DNA from: Egibacteraceae bacterium | Lineage (GTDB): Bacteria > Actinomycetota > Nitriliruptoria > Euzebyales > Egibacteraceae | Direction: 5' to 3' | DNA length: 47,066 nt | Assembly: GCA_040905805.1 (NCBI GenBank) | Contig: JBBDQS010000093.1 | Span: 1 to 47,066 of the forward strand | Shown here: positions 1,479-17,262 of the stretch, in pieces | Numbering within the stretch: position 1 is the first letter of the stretch | How the letters are laid out: every line of letters begins with the position of its first letter | Notes under the pieces: generated by a model | Seen by the model: the letters and a program-made list of their open reading frames with translations, nothing else | What the model was told of the DNA's origin: nothing | Database searches by the model: none | Position numbers and translations under genes: made by a program

Positions 1479-3645
1479 GGGCCACCTCCGTGTCGCCCGT
1501 GGGCACCGCGTCGTCGGCGATGGACGTGGCGACGGGAAGGGTCGCCTGGACGATTGTGCCACCGTCGGGTGCGTCGGCTGCGGTGAACGTGCCGCCGAGC
1601 TCGTCGGCGCGATCACGCATCGAGTGCATCCCGACGCCGGCCCGGGGCACCACCGGCAGCCCGATACCGTCGTCGACCACGCGAATGTCCAGGACCCGCT
1701 CCCGCACGCTGAGGGTGACGGTGCAGGTCGATGCCTCGGCGTGCCGCACCACGTTGGTCATCGCTTCGCGTGTGATGCGCCACGCGGCCACCTCCACGGC
1801 CGCGGACAGTGCAGGCAGCGGGTCGGGCTCGGCGCGGATGCGCATCGCCATCTTGCCGGAGCCGTCGATCTGGGCGACGTGGGCGACCAGGGCGCCGGCC
1901 AGTCCCAGCTCGTCCAGTGCGGGTGGCCGCAGGTCGTGCACAAGCCGCCGGATGTCGGCCACCAGCTCCTGGGTGTCCGCCTTCAACGACTGCAGCAGGG
2001 CGCGAGCTCGAGCCGGGTCACGGTCGACCTGGTCGGTGGCGGCGTCCAGCGCCAGGGTCTGGGCGGCCAACGACGGACCCAGGCCGTCGTGCAGGTCTCG
2101 GCGGATCCGACGTCGTTCCTCCTCGCGGGCCAGCACCAGCTGCTCGCGGGAGTGTTGCAGATCGGCGGTCAGGCGGGCGGTCGCGGCCACTGCACCGGCC
2201 TGCTTCGCGATGTCGGCAAGCAGCCGGCGATCTGCCAGGCCAAGCGACGCGTTGTCGGAGCGCGGTGCCGCCAGCAGTTGTCCGACCTGCTCGTCGCGAT
2301 GCACCAGCGCCACCGACGCAGGAGCGGCGAGTCCGTCCGCGCTGCCGTGCTCGGCCCGGACCACCTGGCCGTCGCGCTGGTCCAGCTCGACCGCCACCCA
2401 CGGCAGTTTGAGCGAGCGGGCAACCGTGTCCACCACCGCCTGCAGGGTCTCGGTCGGGGTCCCGGCAGCGGTCATCACGTCGCCCACCCGCGACAACACC
2501 GCGTACGGGTCGCCACGCTGGCCGAACATCAGCCGGTTGACCAGGCCCTGCATCCGGCGGCGGGCCGGGTCAAACGCCACGGCCACGAGCCCTGTGGCGG
2601 CGAGCGCCAGCCCGCGGTCGCTCGCGCCGGGGACCAGTGCACCCGCGCCGGCGACCACCGTCACGTACACCGCGATCACGCCGACCGTGAGGAGCCCATA
2701 CACCAGGGTGCGGTTGACCACGCGACCGAGGTCGTAGAGACCACGCTGCAACACGCCCAGCCCGATCGCCACAGGCAGCGCACCGATCGCGACCGCCATG
2801 AGGAGGTCGACGACTGGGACCAGGCCGAGGTCGATCCCGCTCTCGGTCAGCAGCGTGTTGCCGACCCGGATCACCGCGGCGGCGGCCAGCAGCCCGAACG
2901 CGTAGAGCACCCAGTTGATCTGGCGACGGGCCCGCTCGCCGGATCGCCGCCACCGCACGACCATGCTCGACACCCCGACGACCGCCGACGCCAGCGTCAG
3001 GACCACCCACGGCACAGCGATCACGGCCTCCGCCACCGCAAGGGATCCCGGCACTGCCAGGATCCCGGTCGGGTTCATCGGTGGCTCGACCAGCGGGTTG
3101 CCCTCGAAGAAGTTCGAGACCGGACGCTGCACCACCATGAACAGCGGGATGTAGACCACCCACCCGATCACCGTGGCCCGCACGGCACGCCCCCACCCCC
3201 GCGTGACCGGGCGCCCGTCGGGGAACAGCGCGGGCAGCAGCAGGAACCCCAGCAGCCACTGCACCATCCACCAGTCCTGGTACCAGGCGGCCGCCATCGC
3301 CAGCGGCCAGTCGGCCTCGGGCCGGAGCACCCAGGCCAACTCGGTGTACTGCAACGCCAGACCATTCGTGGTACCGACCACCGCCATGGCCAGCAACAAC
3401 CAGCCGTAGCGCACCGCCTCGCCTCGCCGCACCACCAGCGCACCCACCACGGCGAACACCACCATCGCCAGAGAGCTCGATAGGTGGTCCAGGGCCCGGG
3501 TGCCACCCAGACCCACCAAGACCCAGCGCCCCACCTCGCCGGCCAGGACGATGGCAGCCAGCACGATCACCACCGGCAGGCGCCACGGCCGGCCCGGAGC
3601 CGAACCGGCCCGAGCCGGCGTGTGCTCATCCCTGGCAGTCATCAC
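1468..3645 (-). CDS. membrane sensor histidine kinase (HisKA_3 / LiaS-DesK type)
   Basis: A 725-residue kinase. The first about 350 residues contain roughly eight to nine hydrophobic segments (for example VVIVLAAIVLA, MVVFAVVGALVV, LLMAVAIGALPVAIGLGVL, GVIAVYVTVVAGAGALV). A GAF-like linker follows (about 380-480), then a short coiled coil and the HisKA_3 H-box with His519 in RRRIRRDLHDGLG. The ATPase domain has the N-box EAMTNVVRHAEA (627-638), G1 VVDDGIGL (656-663) and GVGMHSMRDRADELGG. This architecture resembles actinobacterial kinases whose sensor is the membrane region itself, so a membrane or envelope signal is likely. It may use the first or second ATG. It overlaps the response-regulator gene downstream and follows a membrane-protein gene on the same strand, suggesting one operon. 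Confidence 0.92.
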   Translation of the reverse strand: MMTARDEHTPARAGSAPGRPWRLPVVIVLAAIVLAGEVGRWVLVGLGGTRALDHLSSSLAMVVFAVVGALVVRRGEAVRYGWLLLAMAVVGTTNGLALQYTELAWVLRPEADWPLAMAAAWYQDWWMVQWLLGFLLLPALFPDGRPVTRGWGRAVRATVIGWVVYIPLFMVVQRPVSNFFEGNPLVEPPMNPTGILAVPGSLAVAEAVIAVPWVVLTLASAVVGVSSMVVRWRRSGERARRQINWVLYAFGLLAAAAVIRVGNTLLTESGIDLGLVPVVDLLMAVAIGALPVAIGLGVLQRGLYDLGRVVNRTLVYGLLTVGVIAVYVTVVAGAGALVPGASDRGLALAATGLVAVAFDPARRRMQGLVNRLMFGQRGDPYAVLSRVGDVMTAAGTPTETLQAVVDTVARSLKLPWVAVELDQRDGQVVRAEHGSADGLAAPASVALVHRDEQVGQLLAAPRSDNASLGLADRRLLADIAKQAGAVAATARLTADLQHSREQLVLAREEERRRIRRDLHDGLGPSLAAQTLALDAATDQVDRDPARARALLQSLKADTQELVADIRRLVHDLRPPALDELGLAGALVAHVAQIDGSGKMAMRIRAEPDPLPALSAAVEVAAWRITREAMTNVVRHAEASTCTVTLSVRERVLDIRVVDDGIGLPVVPRAGVGMHSMRDRADELGGTFTAADAPDGGTIVQATLPVATSIADDAVPTGDTEVARGH

Positions 3646-3742
3646 TGCCCCCTGGCATCGGCTGTCCTACGCCCCACGGGCATGTCATCGTACGTGGCCG
3701 CGGCACGACCGGCGTGTCGGGACGCGCGCCGCCCCCCTGGGT

Positions 3743-4666
3743 TCACGACCCGACCGCCGGCGCCCCTGCGCGTCCACGTCGCACCACGGTCACCAGGAAC
3801 ACCACGCCCCACGCCACCGCCGCGATCGCCCAGATCGTCGACAGCCCCGATGCCGACCCGGGGAACACCAGCGAGTGGGCCCCGAACAGGATCGACGCGA
3901 GGCCGGCCGTCCAGGCCGGCAGGCGCCAGCCATCGTGGTCGCTGGCCCCGAGCAGCGCACAGGCGATCATGACCACGCCCAGCAGCGCAGCGGTAGCCCA
4001 GTGCTCGACCCCGGCATGCGGGTCACCGGCAGCGTCGAGGAACTGCAGACGGGCGTTCGCGAACGCGTAGACCGCCCACGGCACGGCGGCCACGGCCGCC
4101 AGAACCACGAGGTCACGGTCGAACGTCGGACGGCGGAAGAAGTCACGCATACGCGGGTGCAGCGCCGCGAGCACCAGGATCGGGATCGTGACGATGAGGT
4201 CCTCGCTCACCCACGCGGTGAAGGTGCCCGCAAGGCCGAAGACGACCGCCCCCGCGATCGCCACCACCACCGCCTGCAACATCGGCGCCACCCGGCGCCA
4301 CGGCCTGCGCAGCTGCACCAGGATCGGCGGCACGGCGGCCCAGGCCACCAGCCCGATCACCATGAAGTGGCTGCGGTGGATCAGGAGGCCCCCCGGGTAG
4401 TCACCGCCGTCACCGCCGCCCGGCAATCCCGCCACGACGTCGTCCGGCAGCCACATCAGAACCACCTCCAACAACCCGAACACGAAGTAGGCCAGCACGA
4501 ACAGCGCCATCAACGCGCTGAACACCCGGAAGGCGATGCGGTGGCCCTTCGACCAGGTGAGGTCGTCGGCGCCGACTGGGGCCCTGGTGCCCGGTGACGC
4601 CGCCGACCCATCGTCAGGCGCGCCTGGCTCGATTCCGTCGTGTGCTCGTGTCGTGTCATCGCTCAT
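3743..4666 (-). CDS. polytopic membrane protein of unknown function
   Basis: A 307-residue protein with a charged N-terminal tail of about 45 residues and about eight transmembrane segments, including VFSALMALFVLAYFVFGLLEVV, FMVIGLVAWAAVPPILVQL, VVVAIAGAVVFGLAG, LIVTIPILVLAAL, LLGVVMIACALLGA and TIWAIAAVAWGVVFLVTVV. I do not recognise the family. It lies about 100 bases upstream of the histidine kinase on the same strand, so it may be co-transcribed with it and act as an accessory sensor or be a target of the two-component system; this is context inference only. The ATG at 4666 is the only start giving a sensible hydrophilic tail. Confidence 0.75.
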   Translation of the reverse strand: MSDDTTRAHDGIEPGAPDDGSAASPGTRAPVGADDLTWSKGHRIAFRVFSALMALFVLAYFVFGLLEVVLMWLPDDVVAGLPGGGDGGDYPGGLLIHRSHFMVIGLVAWAAVPPILVQLRRPWRRVAPMLQAVVVAIAGAVVFGLAGTFTAWVSEDLIVTIPILVLAALHPRMRDFFRRPTFDRDLVVLAAVAAVPWAVYAFANARLQFLDAAGDPHAGVEHWATAALLGVVMIACALLGASDHDGWRLPAWTAGLASILFGAHSLVFPGSASGLSTIWAIAAVAWGVVFLVTVVRRGRAGAPAVGS

Positions 4667-10944: not shown

Positions 10945-11310
10945 ATGTCGAACAAGGCCGTTGTCAGCTTGAACACAGGACTCGAGGACACCGAGACGGT
11001 GACCGTGGCGCTGCTGGTCGCGGTGGGGGCCGCGGAAACGGGACGCCCCACCGTGATGTTCCTGACCAAAGAGGCCGTGCGGCTCGCCCAGCGCGACATC
11101 GCCGTCGGCTCGGCTTGCGACGGGTGCCCGGCCCTGCCCGATCTGCTGAAGCGTTACGAGGACGCCGGGGGACGGCTCTTCGTGTGCCCGGTCTGCTTCA
11201 ACGCCCGCCAGCTCGACGACTCCACGCTTGTGTCCTACGCCGAGATCCAGGGGACCGTGCCGCTGTGGGAGTGGGTCGGCGAGGAGGGTGCCACGGCCTT
11301 CACCTACTAG
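10945..11310 (+). CDS. DsrE/DsrF-like sulfur-relay family protein
   Basis: 121 residues. The DsrE fold is seen in VTVALLVAVGAAETGRPTVM, FLTKEAVRLAQRDI and a Cys-rich centre: CDGCPALPDLLKRYEDAGGR then LFVCPVCFNARQLDD, followed by LWEWVGEEGATAFTY. Family members carry persulfide or take part in sulfur/thiol transfer. Four cysteines arranged CxxC and CxxC suggest redox or metal(loid) binding. The start is fixed by an AGGAGGAAG ribosome-binding site. It lies upstream of the methyltransferase operon, separated by a convergent rhodanese relic, so a thiol/metalloid role is a reasonable inference. Confidence 0.8.
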   Translation: MSNKAVVSLNTGLEDTETVTVALLVAVGAAETGRPTVMFLTKEAVRLAQRDIAVGSACDGCPALPDLLKRYEDAGGRLFVCPVCFNARQLDDSTLVSYAEIQGTVPLWEWVGEEGATAFTY

Positions 11311-11775
11311 TCGTGGTCGCACCATCCTGAGCACTTCTTTGCAGCCGGGTCGATGGGGCCACACCGGTTCCGGAGAGCGCGGCGCCTGCACAACCGTGTG
11401 CGGTCCGGAAGATCGGCGGCTCGGCGCCATTCAGAAAAGCCATCCTCGATGCGGCGTGGCGGCCCTGCGCTTGGAGGCGGCGGACGGCGTCGTCGGCGCA
11501 GACGCAGAAGGGGCCGCGGCAGTAGGCGACGATGTCCCGGTCCGCGGGCAGGTCGTCGAGGCGCTCGAGCTGTCGGGTCGGATGTGGACGGAGCCTGGGA
11601 GATGCCCGGCGGCGTACTCGTCTTGGGGGCGTACGTCCACGACGACGACGTTTCCGCGGTCGAGCCGTTCGAGGAGCTCCTCGCCGGTGAGCGTGGGGAC
11701 GTCCTCGCGGTCGCCGAGGTAGCCGCGGACAAGGTTGCCGATGCCTACCACCTGTGCTTCGGCGACCGTACGCAT
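11307..11775 (-). pseudogene. ArsR-rhodanese fusion relic
   Basis: From ATG 11775 the sequence begins RTVAEAQVVGIGNLVRGYLG, which matches the last helix of ArsR-type regulators, then a rhodanese start (TLTGEELLERLDRGNVVVV, DVRPQDEYAAGHLPGSVHI). A one-base deletion near 11590 moves the frame to DLPADRDIVAYCRGPFCVCA with the active-site Cys loop. A second shift near 11460 leads to RRIEDGFSEWRRAADLPDRT. The winged-helix half of ArsR is missing. ArsR-rhodanese fusions commonly repress metalloid genes, so this may be the former regulator of the neighbouring operon. Confidence 0.7.
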
Positions 11776-11955
11776 CGCCTCGAAGCCTGACTCGGTGCGC
11801 GGCGGGGCTCGGGGACGGCGCGAGGCCACCCCGCCGCCCGGGTCCCGGCGTGCAATAGGACCACCCGTCGATGCGTCCTTACCGATAGCGGGACCGACTA
11901 CAGACAGCAGACAGCCGACAGCCGAAGCCCGACAACACGCGAGGAGACGGACACG

Positions 11956-12780
11956 ATGACTGCGACAGGACCCACGCGCGCGGCCGCGACGCAGACGCCG
12001 GTCGACCCCGGCACGTTGCGGGAGGAGGTGCGCCGCAAGTACCGCGAGGTCGCGCACGATCCGCGGGGTGCGCACCACTTCCACACTGGGCGTCGGCTGG
12101 CCCGCCGGCTCGGCTACCCCGACGATGTCGTCGACCCGCTGCCCGATGAGGCCGTTGAGTCGTTCGCCGGGATCGCGAACCCGTTCACCCTGCGGCCGCT
12201 CGAGCCCGGCGAGAAGGTCATCGACATCGGCTCGGGCGCCGGCTTTGACAGCGTCATCGCTGCCGGCCAGGTCGGCTCGAGCGGTGTCGTCGTCGGCGTC
12301 GACATGACCCAGGACATGCTCGACAAGTCCCGGCGCAACGCCGCTGCGCTCGGGCTCGCTCACGTCGAGTTCCTCGAAGGCCTCGCGGAGGCGCTGCCGG
12401 TTGCCGACGGCTGGGCCGACGTCGTGATCTCCAACGGCGTGTTCAACCTGTGCCCCGACAAGCACGCGGCGTTCACCGAGGTCTGGCGCGTGCTCGCCCC
12501 GGGAGGCCACCTGCAGTTCGGCGACATCGCCAACGGCGCCCCGGTCCCCGCCGAGGCGGTGAAGGACATCGACTTGTGGACCGGGTGAATCGCCGGCGGC
12601 CTGCCGTGCGCAGGCTGGCAGCAGATGCTCGAGGAGATCGGCTTCGTCGACGTGCGCATCGGTGAGCGGGTCGACACGTTCGGTGGCGCGCCGGGTGAGA
12701 CCAACGCCCGCGCCTACGACGTCTACGGCTACCCGTTCCTCGCCCACAAGCCCGACAACACCTGGAGGGATTCACGATGA
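11956..12780 (+). CDS. ArsM-like SAM methyltransferase, predicted selenoprotein (UGA = Sec211)
   Basis: 274 residues when TGA 12586-12588 is read as selenocysteine. SAM motif I is EKVIDIGSGAGFDSVIAA (about 89-106), then VVVGVDMTQDMLDKSRRNAA, and post-motif ISNGVFNLCPDKHAAF. The family's conserved metalloid-binding Cys near the C-terminal domain sits in a motif like WxGCIAGAL; here it is LWTG-U-IAGGL. After the TGA the frame continues as CAGWQQMLEEIGFVDVRIGE and AYDVYGYPFLAHKP, ending at 12780 with a 4-base ATGA overlap into the next gene. A stem-loop at 12597-12617 fits a bacterial SECIS. Two other cysteines of canonical ArsM (in LGCGNP and SNCVxNLS) are replaced by Ile and Gly, so arsenite as substrate is doubtful. 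If TGA is a stop, the product would be a 210-residue truncated enzyme. Confidence 0.82.
12597..12617 (+). promoter_or_regulatory. SECIS-like stem-loop after the UGA of the first methyltransferase
   Basis: Arms CGGCCTGC and GCAGGCTG form 8 pairs (one G-U) around the 5-base loop CGTGC. The stem begins 8 bases and the loop 16 bases after the UGA. Bacterial SelB-dependent SECIS elements lie in this position and carry GU in the apical loop. Function is inferred. Confidence 0.6.
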
Positions 12781-13820
12781 CGGCCGCCACAGGGGACACC
12801 GTGTCCCCCGCCGATCAAGCCAAGGTCGTGCTGTCGCACGCGGCCGGCTACGCGGGTCACCGCACCATCGCGATGGGGCTGCGCAGCGGCCTTATCGAGG
12901 CGCTCGCCCGCCGGCCGGAGGCCACCACGCCCGACCAGCTCGCCGCCGATCTGGGCTTTGACCCGTTCTACACCGCGGTGTGGTGCCGGTCAGCGCTCGC
13001 CGCCGGGGTCTGCGAGCGGGTCGGCGACGGCTACCGGCTCGCCCCCCACATGGACACGCTGCTCCTCGACGACCGTTCCCCCGCGTACGCCGGTGCGCTC
13101 TTCGGCGTCTTCGAGCAGCCCGAGCTGTTCGACCGCTTCGAGCGCGTGCTGCCCACAGGGCAGCGGCTGTGGTGGGACGAGTGCAGCCCCGAGTGGATCG
13201 CCGGGGTGACTGGCACCGGCACCCCCTTCTACACCCGCCTGGTCCCGCAGGGCCTCAGCGACGTGCCCGGCCTCGCCGAACGGCTCGCGTCCGGCTGCCG
13301 GGTCGTCGACACCGCCTGCGGCACGGGGGTGGGCCTGCTGCGCCTCGCCGAGCACTACCCGGCGTGCGAGCTCATCGGCGTCGACGGCGACGCCCACTCG
13401 ATCGGCCTCGCCGCCCGGCGCCTGGCCGAGGCCGGGGTGGACGAGCGTGTGACGCTGCACGTCAGCCCGCTGGAGGAGATGACGATCGACGAGCCGGCGA
13501 CGCTGGTGATCAACAACATCTCGATGCACGAGTGCCGCGACATCGACGAGACGACGAGAAAGGTCAAGGGAACGCTCGAGCCCGGCGGCTGGTTCGTGAT
13601 CTCTGACTTCCCGTTCCCCGAGACCGACGAGGAGCTGGCGACCGTGCCCGGTCGGCTGATGTGCGGGATCCAGTTCTTCGAGGCGCAGATCGACGATCAG
13701 CTGCTCCCGCGCCGGGTCTACGACGAGCTTCTCACGCGGCACGGGTTCACCGATATCGGGTCGGCGCAGCTCGCCCCGGTGCACGCGTTGACGTGGGGTC
13801 GCCACCCGTCGGGTGTGTGA
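12777..13820 (+). CDS. SAM-dependent methyltransferase with N-terminal winged-helix domain
   Basis: 347 residues. N-terminal winged-helix/dimerisation part (GYAGHRTIAMGLRSGLIEAL, ATTPDQLAADLGFDPFYTAV, GDGYRLAPHMDTLLLDD). The methyltransferase domain has SAM motif I in CRVVDTACGTGVGLLRLAEH (about 178-197) and acidic strand end LIGVDGDAHSIGLAARRL, then VINNISMHECRDIDE as the catalytic-loop region. Its ATG overlaps the preceding stop (ATGA), with GGAGG upstream, so translation is coupled to the selenoprotein gene: efficient Sec readthrough would bring ribosomes to this start. Substrate unknown; it may act on the same small molecule as its two neighbours. Confidence 0.85.
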   Translation: MTAATGDTVSPADQAKVVLSHAAGYAGHRTIAMGLRSGLIEALARRPEATTPDQLAADLGFDPFYTAVWCRSALAAGVCERVGDGYRLAPHMDTLLLDDRSPAYAGALFGVFEQPELFDRFERVLPTGQRLWWDECSPEWIAGVTGTGTPFYTRLVPQGLSDVPGLAERLASGCRVVDTACGTGVGLLRLAEHYPACELIGVDGDAHSIGLAARRLAEAGVDERVTLHVSPLEEMTIDEPATLVINNISMHECRDIDETTRKVKGTLEPGGWFVISDFPFPETDEELATVPGRLMCGIQFFEAQIDDQLLPRRVYDELLTRHGFTDIGSAQLAPVHALTWGRHPSGV

Positions 13821-13868
13821 CAATGCATCTGCGTGGTCCACGGCGCACGATCGGAGGCGCGTAGCGCC

Positions 13869-14696
13869 ATGCAGCAAGCAGGTCAGCAGACGAATCGCAG
13901 CGGGTTCACCGCGGTTGCCCGCGAGCAGCTGCCGTGGCTGTACTCGCTGGCCCGCCGGCTCGTCGGCGACCAGGCGGAGGACGCCGTGCAGGAGTGCCTC
14001 ATCAAGGCCTACCGGGCGTACGACAAGCTGCGCGACGAGCAGGCCGCGCCGGCGTGGTTCCGCCAGATCCTGCTCAACTGCATCCGCGACCGCTACCGCA
14101 AGGAGTCCGGCCTGCCGGTCGAGGACTCCATCGACGACATGAGCGAGCACTCGCTGTACCGCCAGATCGCCGACGCCGACCCGTTGCCCTACTCCGACAG
14201 CGTGCACCTGGACTTCCTCGCCGCGTTCGAGCAGGCGCACGTCTGGGAGGTGCTCGACCGCATCAAGGCGCTCTACCGGGTCCCCCTCGTGCTGGTGCAC
14301 ATGGAGGGGTTCTCGACCGCCCAGGTGGCCCGCATGTTCGGGGTCGCGCGGGGCACCGTGCTGTCGTGGCTGCACCGCGGCCGCAAGCTGTTCGAACGCG
14401 AGTTATGGGACTACGCCACCGAGCACGACCTGCTCGCGGCCGGGAAAGGGAGCAGGGCGATGATCAGCTGCGCTGAGGCGGTTGGCCAGCTGTGGGAGTA
14501 CCTCGAGCACGAGGTCGACGACGCCGACCGGGGCCAGGTCGAGGAACACCTCGCGTTCTGCCGGCGCTGCTGCGGCGAGGCCGAGTTCGCCGAAGCGCTG
14601 CGGGACTTCCTGCGCTCCGCCGCACGTCCCCACCTGCCCGGCGACGTGGCAAACCGCCTCGTCGGGTTCCTCGATGAGTTGAAGGAGAGCACATGA
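13869..14696 (+). CDS. ECF sigma factor fused to a zinc-finger anti-sigma domain
   Basis: 275 residues. Sigma region 2 is EQLPWLYSLARRLVGDQAED to WFRQILLNCIRDRYRK (about 18-78). Sigma region 4 has FSTAQVARMFGVARGTVLSW and LHRGRKLFERELW (about 153-182). A ZAS-type domain follows (about 198-275) with HLAFCRRC, i.e. H-x3-C-x2-C, the zinc/redox motif of RsrA-like anti-sigma factors. Normally sigma and anti-sigma are separate genes; here they are one frame. An internal ATG (14460) is preceded by AAAGGGAGCAGGGCG, so a free anti-sigma domain could also be made. The stop overlaps the ATG of the next gene. Position inside the operon suggests it senses thiol or metalloid stress and activates the operon. 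Confidence 0.85.
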   Translation: MQQAGQQTNRSGFTAVAREQLPWLYSLARRLVGDQAEDAVQECLIKAYRAYDKLRDEQAAPAWFRQILLNCIRDRYRKESGLPVEDSIDDMSEHSLYRQIADADPLPYSDSVHLDFLAAFEQAHVWEVLDRIKALYRVPLVLVHMEGFSTAQVARMFGVARGTVLSWLHRGRKLFERELWDYATEHDLLAAGKGSRAMISCAEAVGQLWEYLEHEVDDADRGQVEEHLAFCRRCCGEAEFAEALRDFLRSAARPHLPGDVANRLVGFLDELKEST

Positions 14697-15487
14697 GCAA
14701 GGACCTCATGTTCAAAGACGAGGTTCAGCAACTCGTCGCCGACGCCTACCGGGCGCTTGACGCCCCAGGTGGCCCGGCCGCCCGCCACTACACCGACGGG
14801 CAGCTCGCCGCGCTGCCCGACGGTGCCCGCGAGTGGCTGCTCGGGGTGGGCAACCCGACCGCCTGGGCCGGCCTGCGACCCGGCGAGGACGTCGCCGACC
14901 TGGGTTGCGGCGCCGGGCCCGACACGATCCTCGCCGCGCGCGAGATCGGTGCGGGCGGGCACGCCACGGGGATCGATCTGCTGCCCGAGATGGTCGAACG
15001 GGCGCGGGCGAACGCCGCTGCCGCAGGGCTCGACAACGTCACGTTCCTGCAAGGCGAGATCGAGGACGTCCCGCTGGCCGACGGTTCGGTCGACGTCGTG
15101 CTCGCCAACGGCACGATCAACCTGTCTGCGCGCAAGAGCCGCGTGCTCGCCGAGGCGCACCGCATCCTGCGGCCGGGCGGGCGCCTGTGCGCACCCGATC
15201 TCACCATCCGCGAGGACGAACTGCCCACCGAGGTGCTCACCCACCCCGCGGCGTGGGCCGGGTGAGTAGCCGGGGCCCTGGCGGAGCGTGTCTTCGTCGA
15301 CAAGATGACAACCGTCGGCTTCATCGACATCGACGTGCGTGAACGGCGGCCCTTCGGGCTCGAGGACGCCGCCGACTACCCGTTGTTCACGCCCGATCTC
15401 ATCGACCTCATGCACAAGTTGATTCCTCCCGAGCGGCAGGCCCACGTGGCCACCGCGATCACGGTCACGGCCCGCAAGCCGGGCTGA
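14693..15487 (+). CDS. second ArsM-like SAM methyltransferase, predicted selenoprotein (UGA = Sec191)
   Basis: 264 residues when TGA 15263-15265 is read as selenocysteine. SAM motif I is EDVADLGCGAGPDTILAARE (about 64-83), then TGIDLLPEMVERARANAAAA, EDVPLADGSVDVVLANGTIN and ILRPGGRLCAPDL. The ArsM motif AWAGCVAGAL reads AWAG-U-VAGAL here. The frame then continues KMTTVGFIDIDVRERRPFG, DYPLFTPDLIDLMHKLIPPE and ends TVTARKPG at 15487, exactly the family C-terminus. A stem-loop lies at 15279-15299. Canonical ArsM cysteines in LGCGNP and SNCVxNLS are Val (LGVGNP) and Gly here. It overlaps the sigma gene by 4 bases. A single TGA at the same homologous position as in the neighbouring paralogue is hard to explain by decay. 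Confidence 0.83.
15279..15299 (+). promoter_or_regulatory. SECIS-like stem-loop after the UGA of the second methyltransferase
   Basis: Arms TGGCGGAG and CTTCGTCG pair over 8 positions (three G-U) around the loop CGTGT, which begins 21 bases after the UGA. The loop matches that of the first element (CGTGC) although the surrounding sequence differs. Function is inferred. Confidence 0.5.
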
Positions 15488-15528: not shown

Positions 15529-16233
15529 CTAGCTGACAGGCCCAGTCCCCCACCGACGTGGTGTTGGTCGCTGCCTGGTGGTGGAGTAGTGTTCGACGGC
15601 TGCGGTGAGCTCCGTCGGGTCCATCCCGCGGCCGTCGTCGGCGACGCTGATCCGCACGTAGCGTCCGGTTGGCAGTCCGAGGCGGCTGGCTGCTGCGGGC
15701 GGCAGCGACGTTGCGGCCGCGCTGAGGAGGATGCGACCGTCATGCTCGACCGCATCAACCGCATTGGTGAAGAGGTTGCTGACCACGCAGTGCAGTTGTG
15801 GGGCGGAGACGCGGACGTGGGCGGTGGTGCCGTCGAGCCGTGCCTCCAGGTCGATGACGTCGGGCACGAGTTCGGCGAGCCCGCTGCGGAGCTCGCCGAG
15901 CACGCCGAATGGCGTCGATCGACGCGGCCTTCGGTTGCCAGCCGCTGGTGAACGCCTGCAGCTGACGGACCAGGCCGCCCGCGGTGGCCAGGACGGTGTG
16001 GAGGGTATGAGCGGCATCGGCGACCTGCGGCTCTGTGAGCCGGCCTTCAGCAACTCGGTCTGCATGGTCGCGGCGGTGAGGTGGCGATGCAGCAGCACGA
16101 CGGCGGCGTGTCCGGCGGCGTGGAAGTCGGCGCCGTCGTTCACCAGTGCCGAGAGCTCCGCCGCTGCGCCCAGCCGCTCGGTTACCCGCAGGATTTGACG
16201 TCGGGGGGCGGTCGAACAGTCGTGGCGCCTGCG
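15529..16233 (-). pseudogene. GHKL histidine kinase relic
   Basis: Pieces of a kinase occur in three frames: ILRVTERLGAAAELSALVND and VVLLHRHLTAATMQTELLKA, then VADAAHTLHTVLATAGGLVR and QLQAFTSGWQPKAASIDA, then PQLHCVVSNLFTNAVDAVEH (N-box) and YVRISVADDGRGMDPTELTA (G1 box), and finally the G2 box GGGLGLS in yet another frame. At least three frameshifts are required and no proper start exists. It lies directly after the cobalamin-sensor gene on the same strand, so it was probably the output kinase of that operon. Confidence 0.7.
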
Positions 16234-16236
16234 CGT

Positions 16237-17262
16237 TCAGGTGGCGGAGTTCGCCGGCAGCGAAGCGGCGGAGCGGGTCAGTAGTCCGCCAGCCTGCTCC
16301 TGTCCCTGGGCGTGCAGGGCGACACCGAGGGCGTCGAACGTGGGGTCGAGCACGGTTGCTGGAACCCTCCGCGCGGTGAGGATCCCGAGGAGCCAGGACA
16401 GGTACTCCGTCGCGACGCGCTCGTCTCCGGTGAGGACCGTCGCCTCGAGGAACCGAACGGTGTACTCGAGGTCCTCTCGGGTGCGCTGGCGCTGCCGCTC
16501 CTCAGCGCTGCGCAGCCAAGGAAGTCGCCGTTCGAGTTCGTGCTCGGCCTGCTCGGTGATGAGGGTCCGGTCACCACGCAACGTCCGGTAGGACGCGACG
16601 GCGGCTTCGTCTGGCGCTGCCAGCTGTCCGGGGCCGTGCTCGGCCCACCCCTGCAGGACCCGGTCAGTCGCTGCGGCGTCGGCTGCCCACGCGTCCGCGC
16701 CGATCGCGGTGGCGCGGCGGTCGTCGTCACCGAACGCGCGGCCACCGGCAATGCCGGGCACGCCGGCGCGGTGGGCGGCCTCAACGGTTTCCAGCGCGCC
16801 AGGCAGCGTCATCGGGATGGCGCAGCTGACCGCGACGGCCAGGGGTCGGGTTTCCTCGAGGTGGCGCTGGAGGTCACGAGCGGGGATGCTGCCGCCGAGG
16901 AACTGGGCGTCCCAGCGGCGCGCTCGCAGACCGTCGGTCAGCATGCGGGCCGGCAGCGTGTGCCATTCGCCCTCGGCGCACACGACGAGTAGCGGGCGCG
17001 ACAGCACCGGTTCGCTGGTATGTGCAGCCACGGCGGCGGCTACCCGGTCGGTGATGGCGGTCGCGGCGTGCTCGTCGGCGACCGTCCATTCGTTGCTGGC
17101 CCATCGCTCACCGACCTCTCGTTGTGCGCCGGCGAGCATGCCGAGGACCTGCTCCGTTCCCGCACCGGCCGTGAGCGCACCCAGCGCCACACCCATCGCG
17201 GCGGCAAGGTCGCGCCGCTCCAGGCAGGCCAGGTACTCCGCGGTTGGCGACAGCGCGCTCAC
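16237..17262 (-). CDS. cobalamin-binding sensor protein (CarH/LitR-like B12 module without HTH)
   Basis: 341 residues. The N-terminal four-helix B12-binding-2 domain contains W-ASNEWTVAD-EH (Wx9EH), the light-sensing cap motif of CarH/LitR photoreceptors. The Rossmann B12-binding domain follows with GEWHTLPARMLTDGLRARRW, where His matches the lower axial ligand of E/DxHxxG proteins, then FLGGSIPARDLQRHLEETRP and AGVPGIAGGRAFG. Instead of an N-terminal MerR-type HTH there is a C-terminal helical region (from about 225 to 341; REDLEYTVRFLEATVLTGDE) of unknown role. It begins at GTG 17262 overlapping the upstream stop. Light- or B12-dependent signalling to the (now broken) downstream kinase is inferred. 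Confidence 0.82.
   Translation of the reverse strand: MSALSPTAEYLACLERRDLAAAMGVALGALTAGAGTEQVLGMLAGAQREVGERWASNEWTVADEHAATAITDRVAAAVAAHTSEPVLSRPLLVVCAEGEWHTLPARMLTDGLRARRWDAQFLGGSIPARDLQRHLEETRPLAVAVSCAIPMTLPGALETVEAAHRAGVPGIAGGRAFGDDDRRATAIGADAWAADAAATDRVLQGWAEHGPGQLAAPDEAAVASYRTLRGDRTLITEQAEHELERRLPWLRSAEERQRQRTREDLEYTVRFLEATVLTGDERVATEYLSWLLGILTARRVPATVLDPTFDALGVALHAQGQEQAGGLLTRSAASLPANSAT

Follow-up and report, generated by a model that had tools for sequence, protein, structure and literature searches.

Paired ArsM-like methyltransferases predicted to carry selenocysteine at one shared position in an Egibacteraceae genome

A 47,066-nucleotide stretch of an Egibacteraceae bacterium genome (GenBank assembly GCA_040905805.1, contig JBBDQS010000093.1; the whole stretch is called the window below) contains two genes, MT1 and MT2, that encode predicted S-adenosylmethionine (SAM) methyltransferases related to the arsenite methyltransferase ArsM and that have a single in-frame TGA apiece, at a shared alignment column. 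It is very likely that both genes read this UGA as selenocysteine (Sec), an assessment that covers the decoding of the two genes jointly and not their substrate. At the sequence level, comparison with homologues shows exchange between UGA and cysteine codons, the presence of hairpins and of most of the Sec machinery, conserved pairing and the disappearance of the other arsenic ligands; from these data we infer actual Sec insertion into MT1 and MT2, their substrate and their regulation.

In-frame TGA codons and their exchange with cysteine

MT1 (11956-12780, plus strand) encodes 274 amino acids with its TGA at 12586-12588 (predicted Sec211, WTG-U-IAGG), and MT2 (14693-15487, plus strand) encodes 264 amino acids with its TGA at 15263-15265 (predicted Sec191, WAG-U-VAGA). 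A preliminary description, made from the DNA alone, had reported a single TGA at the homologous position of both genes and frames that run on to the natural C-terminus, and both observations were confirmed, each frame ending at a natural TGA stop. TGA is also the true stop codon of all four genes of the operon (MT1, a further methyltransferase gene MT3, a sigma factor gene and MT2), and the genetic code has therefore not changed; the one operon apparently uses TGA both as stop and as sense codon.

With TGA read as a residue, 39 MT1 and 24 MT2 homologues were examined, and the exchange of cysteine and Sec that the preliminary description had proposed to look for by alignment was seen in both sets. 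The column was TGA in 32/39 MT1 homologues and TGC in the other 7/39, and was divided between TGA (13/24) and TGC (11/24) in MT2. All four Sec/Cys combinations of the MT1-MT2 pair occur. TGA-form MT1 was found in public metagenome-assembled genomes labelled Nitriliruptoraceae, Acidimicrobiia, Ilumatobacteraceae, Pseudonocardiaceae, Deltaproteobacteria and Rhodospirillaceae, although such taxon labels can be wrong. In a maximum-likelihood tree, rooted by midpoint only, MT1 and MT2, which are paralogous, fell into two distinct, well-supported clades separated by canonical Cys ArsMs, and Sec required at least three changes. Sec was therefore probably acquired separately in the MT1 and MT2 subfamilies, with a probable loss on one or more MT1 branches.

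Hairpins and the selenocysteine machinery

Each TGA is followed by the 8-pair hairpin with a CGUGY loop that the preliminary description had located, at 12597-12617 in MT1 (loop CGUGC, one G-U pair, -15.5 kcal/mol for 25 nt) and at 15279-15299 in MT2 (loop CGUGU, three G-U pairs, -8.0 kcal/mol for 23 nt). Bacterial selenocysteine insertion sequence (SECIS) elements are expected to have a loop of 3-9 nt with a G in its first two positions, placed 16-37 nt after the UGA on a stem of 4-16 bp, and a minimum free energy of -7.5 kcal/mol or lower (PMC13188914). As isolated hairpins, both elements fall within these limits, with UGA-to-loop gaps of 16 nt (MT1) and 21 nt (MT2). By energy alone neither stands out (z about -1.6 for MT1 and -1.7 for MT2, which is not convincing), and support for the hairpins was therefore sought by comparison. 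The helix was paired in 98.8% of cells in the TGA forms of MT1 (n = 32) versus 53.6% in the Cys forms, and in 96.2% (n = 13) versus 38.6% for MT2; as the helix was defined from a TGA form and related sequences are not independent events, the contrast with the Cys forms serves as the main control. Pair 13-29 of MT1 is G-C in 18 sequences and C-G in 13, and pair 18-34 of MT2 varies between G-U, G-C and A-U, while the CGUGY loop is kept in 29/32 MT1 and 12/13 MT2 TGA forms. In two divergent TGA-form MT1 genes (L047 and L048), the position of the CGUGY element is taken by another strong hairpin (GCUCUGC/GCRGAGC). Synonymous-codon entropy is low just after the UGA (permutation p = 0.017 for MT1 and 0.008 for MT2), where the frozen codons are Leu CTG (32/32), Pro CCG (29/29) and Ala GCA (30/31) in MT1 and Glu GAG (13/13), Arg CGT (12/12), Val GTC (11/11) and Phe TTC (13/13) in MT2; like the pairing values, these counts come from related sequences. 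A Cys at residue 218 of MT1 (UxxxxxxC) was also considered as a redox partner of the predicted Sec. The close Cys forms lack this residue, which is encoded within the SECIS loop, so it may have arisen as a side effect of the constraint on the RNA.

Docked on the hairpin that follows each UGA, SelB would insert Sec in both proteins, and the CGUGY loop common to the two genes suggests that one SelB specificity could serve both. The genome, a draft of 166 contigs estimated at 95.3% completeness, encodes selB (329.6 bits) and selA (429.2 bits) on the same contig, together with selD (361.9 bits), which has one in-frame TGA read as HGAGUACK. GAGUACK with Sec is the usual Sec form of SelD. This selD (L019, about 1501-2440, minus strand) is thus itself a predicted selenoprotein gene, whose UGA is followed, about 33 nt on, by a strong hairpin (GGCGCAG-GUC-CUGCGCC). 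A tRNA-Sec with anticodon TCA was recovered by ARAGORN and Rfam in 11 of 12 relatives, including one of the same genus, and in one relative (G047; L144, 7177-12655) MT1 lies beside a complete SelB-SelA-SelD-tRNASec cluster on one contig, within 6 kb. Together with the Cys/Sec exchange and the SECIS-like hairpins, the machinery supports the proposal of the preliminary description that both genes encode selenoproteins.

Some observations weigh against this account. Of the four machinery genes that had been suggested for a genome check, selA, selB and selD are present, but the tRNA-Sec gene (selC) was not found in the draft assembly by Rfam RF01852, an anticodon/T-loop pattern, a clade-specific covariance model or a BLAST search using the gene of the same-genus relative together with its flanking sequence, all of which returned other tRNAs or nothing. 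The regions that flank the same-genus selC are not syntenic in this genome. The missing gene is most likely an assembly gap. The association between TGA-form genes and a selB over the cut-off is modest (18/26 genomes with TGA-form genes versus 16/35 of the others, p = 0.08; 21/26 versus 16/35, p = 0.008, when near-cut-off matches are included), presumably because selB serves other selenoproteins too. The MT2 hairpin of the window is weak and is not the lowest-energy fold of its own 39-nt context. Finally, none of the genes checked beside the MT1/MT2 pair was recognisable as an arsenic-resistance gene.

The absence of a detected selC would also suit two other explanations of the UGAs. They could be genuine stops, with the downstream parts decayed or kept for rare readthrough and the short proteins as the products, and each UGA does close a long standard open reading frame (210 amino acids in MT1 and 190 in MT2). 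However, the sequence after the UGA remains in frame and homologous across 45 TGA-form relatives, and it matches the C-terminus of the Cys forms; the same UGA is preserved over deep divergence, and the hairpins are retained in the TGA forms only, which together make this explanation highly improbable. It is just as improbable that a variant or near-cognate tRNA decodes the UGA as Cys or another amino acid without the Sec machinery. Cys is indeed the alternative residue at the column, but UGA is a real stop in the very same operon, the genome holds selA, selB and a TGA-containing selD, relatives have a canonical tRNA-Sec, and the hairpins match the bacterial SECIS model.

Loss of arsenic-binding cysteines and the possible substrate

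By hidden Markov model (HMM), sequence and fold, ArsM is the nearest known relative of MT1 and MT2. Using an AlphaFold model for fold matching only, the best structural matches of MT1 were CmArsM, CrArsM and human AS3MT (4fr0, 5evj and 8xt7), in keeping with a SAM methyltransferase fold closest to ArsM. Of the three As(III)-binding cysteines of this family (C72, C174 and C224 in CmArsM), only the C224 column is shared with MT1 and MT2; it coincides with the predicted Sec of both and is always Sec or Cys in their homologues. In contrast to CmArsM, CrArsM and human AS3MT, the C72 column holds Ile, Val, Thr or Ser and the C174 column Gly in all aligning MT1/MT2 proteins, so that Cys is missing from both columns in 63/63 MT1/MT2 proteins but kept at both in 12/12 canonical homologues, a contrast drawn against canonical Cys forms. 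The label ArsM-like given in the preliminary description thus stands by descent and fold, but not for the metal site, as two of the three arsenic-ligand cysteines are gone in every homologue examined. Arsenite is reported to be bound by three cysteines, methylarsenite by two and dimethylarsenite by one, and the C174A and C224A variants of CmArsM to be inactive on arsenite and methylarsenite (PMC3877260). With C72 and C174 gone, the canonical ArsM mechanism is therefore not available to MT1 and MT2.

These data leave it unlikely that the pair consists of ordinary arsenite methyltransferases that happen to use Sec. Such a view is favoured by ArsM being the best HMM, sequence and fold match and by Sec ArsMs having been described already (PMC13188914). 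Besides the missing ligands, however, the window proteins score 207.7 and 221.5 bits against the arsenite methyltransferase model NF008823 (cut-off 263 bits), all six MT1/MT2 proteins tested lie at 208-226 bits, and three canonical controls reach 270-300 bits, passing even as fragments. Canonical Cys ArsM genes are also present in these genomes. MT1 and MT2 are thus probably not ordinary arsenite methyltransferases. A substrate other than arsenic (another metalloid, a metal, a small thiol, or a species of selenium or tellurium), towards which Sec would act as a ligand or a redox nucleophile, is a substantial possibility, if somewhat short of an even chance; a single chalcogen ligand is left, and DsrE, OsmC-like and PpoB2 genes lie near some MT1/MT2 copies, but no particular substrate is positively supported.

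The predicted Sec would sit at the arsenic-ligand position C224 of ArsM, near the point where the methyl group of SAM is delivered, and proteins without C72 and C174 should not methylate arsenite or methylarsenite via the known three- or two-thiolate mechanism. As the most likely function we tentatively suggest SAM-dependent methylation of soft, mostly substituted metalloid or metal species, for which the selenolate would be the single protein ligand. The simplest candidate is dimethylarsenite, and binding of this or another soft species by one selenolate is our preferred, though weakly supported, idea. MT1 and MT2 might represent two ArsM-derived subfamilies that lost the trithiolate site, kept one ligand, independently turned it into Sec and became a regulated pair with a new single-selenolate methyltransferase chemistry, a broader proposal that is equally tentative; examples of such chemistry would be the last methylation of dimethylarsenite or the methylation of another metal or metalloid. 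PADLOC matches (mad2) were dismissed as they cover the generic methyltransferase domain alone.

Gene neighbourhood and relation to known selenoproteins

The same-strand cluster in the window consists, in order, of MT1, MT3 (12777-13820, plus strand), a gene for an extracytoplasmic function (ECF) sigma factor with a fused C-terminal zinc-finger (zf-HC2) anti-sigma-like domain (13869-14696, plus strand) and MT2. MT3 encodes another SAM methyltransferase, without Sec; its start overlaps the MT1 stop as ATGA, as the start of MT2 does the stop of the sigma gene, and it is not conserved as a neighbour elsewhere. The sigma factor adjoins MT2 in 8/8 neighbourhoods compared, usually with a small zinc-finger reading frame after it, and in 15 genomes no more than about 3 kb separates MT1 from MT2 (two Sec forms in 7 of these genomes, a single Sec form in 5 and two Cys forms in 3). 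The two enzymes may act in one response, with the ECF sigma/zinc-finger anti-sigma as its regulator.

A second copy of the cluster with MT1, sigma factor and MT2 was found in the same genome (L083, G000:C81, about 1583-3912). Its MT2 keeps the TGA, and its MT1 has an internal deletion of ~40 codons and a frame change with the TGA and hairpin region intact, reflecting either a pseudogene or an assembly error. In two relatives (L088, 5253-6080; L086, 10042-10833), the sigma factor is adjoined by an OsmC-like protein with a relationship to a (seleno)protein domain family. One Cys-form MT2 (L089, 7684-8895) continues into a fused cupin domain at its C-terminus; other Cys-form MT2 frames have a similar C-terminal extension, which Sec-form MT2 lacks. 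Upstream of MT1 in the window are a DsrE-like gene (10945-11310) and, on the minus strand at about 11310-11780, a rhodanese-like reading frame that is seemingly broken by a frameshift. At 15529-17262 (minus strand) lies a gene resembling a B12-binding sensor that apparently continues into a kinase-like ATPase part; it is interrupted by a TGA, probably not Sec, and perhaps also by a frameshift.

The preliminary description took a Sec form of these methyltransferases to be undescribed as far as known, which proved incorrect. A selenoprotein arsenite methyltransferase with a UxxG motif is listed in a 2026 review citing Fomenko 2007, where ArsM-fusion selenoproteins are likewise catalogued (PMC13188914), and the Global Ocean Sampling (GOS) survey included an arsenite S-adenosylmethyltransferase among its selenoproteins (PMC2398784). 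MT1 and MT2 share with the former (NF008823) the SAM methyltransferase fold and Sec followed by xxG (here UIAG and UVAG), but they fall below its cut-off and form two separate, paired subfamilies. MT1 fits the methyltransferase domains of the ArsM/AhpD, ArsM/DUF2284 and MTase/UXPK-star selenoproteins (NF041537, NF041536 and NF047649) almost as well as NF008823, or better; in contrast to these, neither MT1 nor MT2 carries a fused AhpD, DUF2284 or UXPK-star domain, and as whole proteins they score 150-225 bits against cut-offs of 460-575. What looks new is the conserved pairing of two single-ligand ArsM-like subfamilies whose predicted Sec residues fall in one column and whose genes adjoin an ECF sigma/zinc-finger regulator.

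Standard annotation would end both genes at the UGA and report truncated methyltransferases. Read through, they would widen the range of selenoprotein operons to include a pair that is linked to a sigma factor and conserved in apparent Nitriliruptoria and some other bacteria. Overall, because close relatives have either Sec or Cys at the column, every pair combination exists and the other metal ligands are absent, MT1 and MT2 would provide a natural setting in which to test why Cys gives way to Sec in an enzyme that is not an oxidoreductase.

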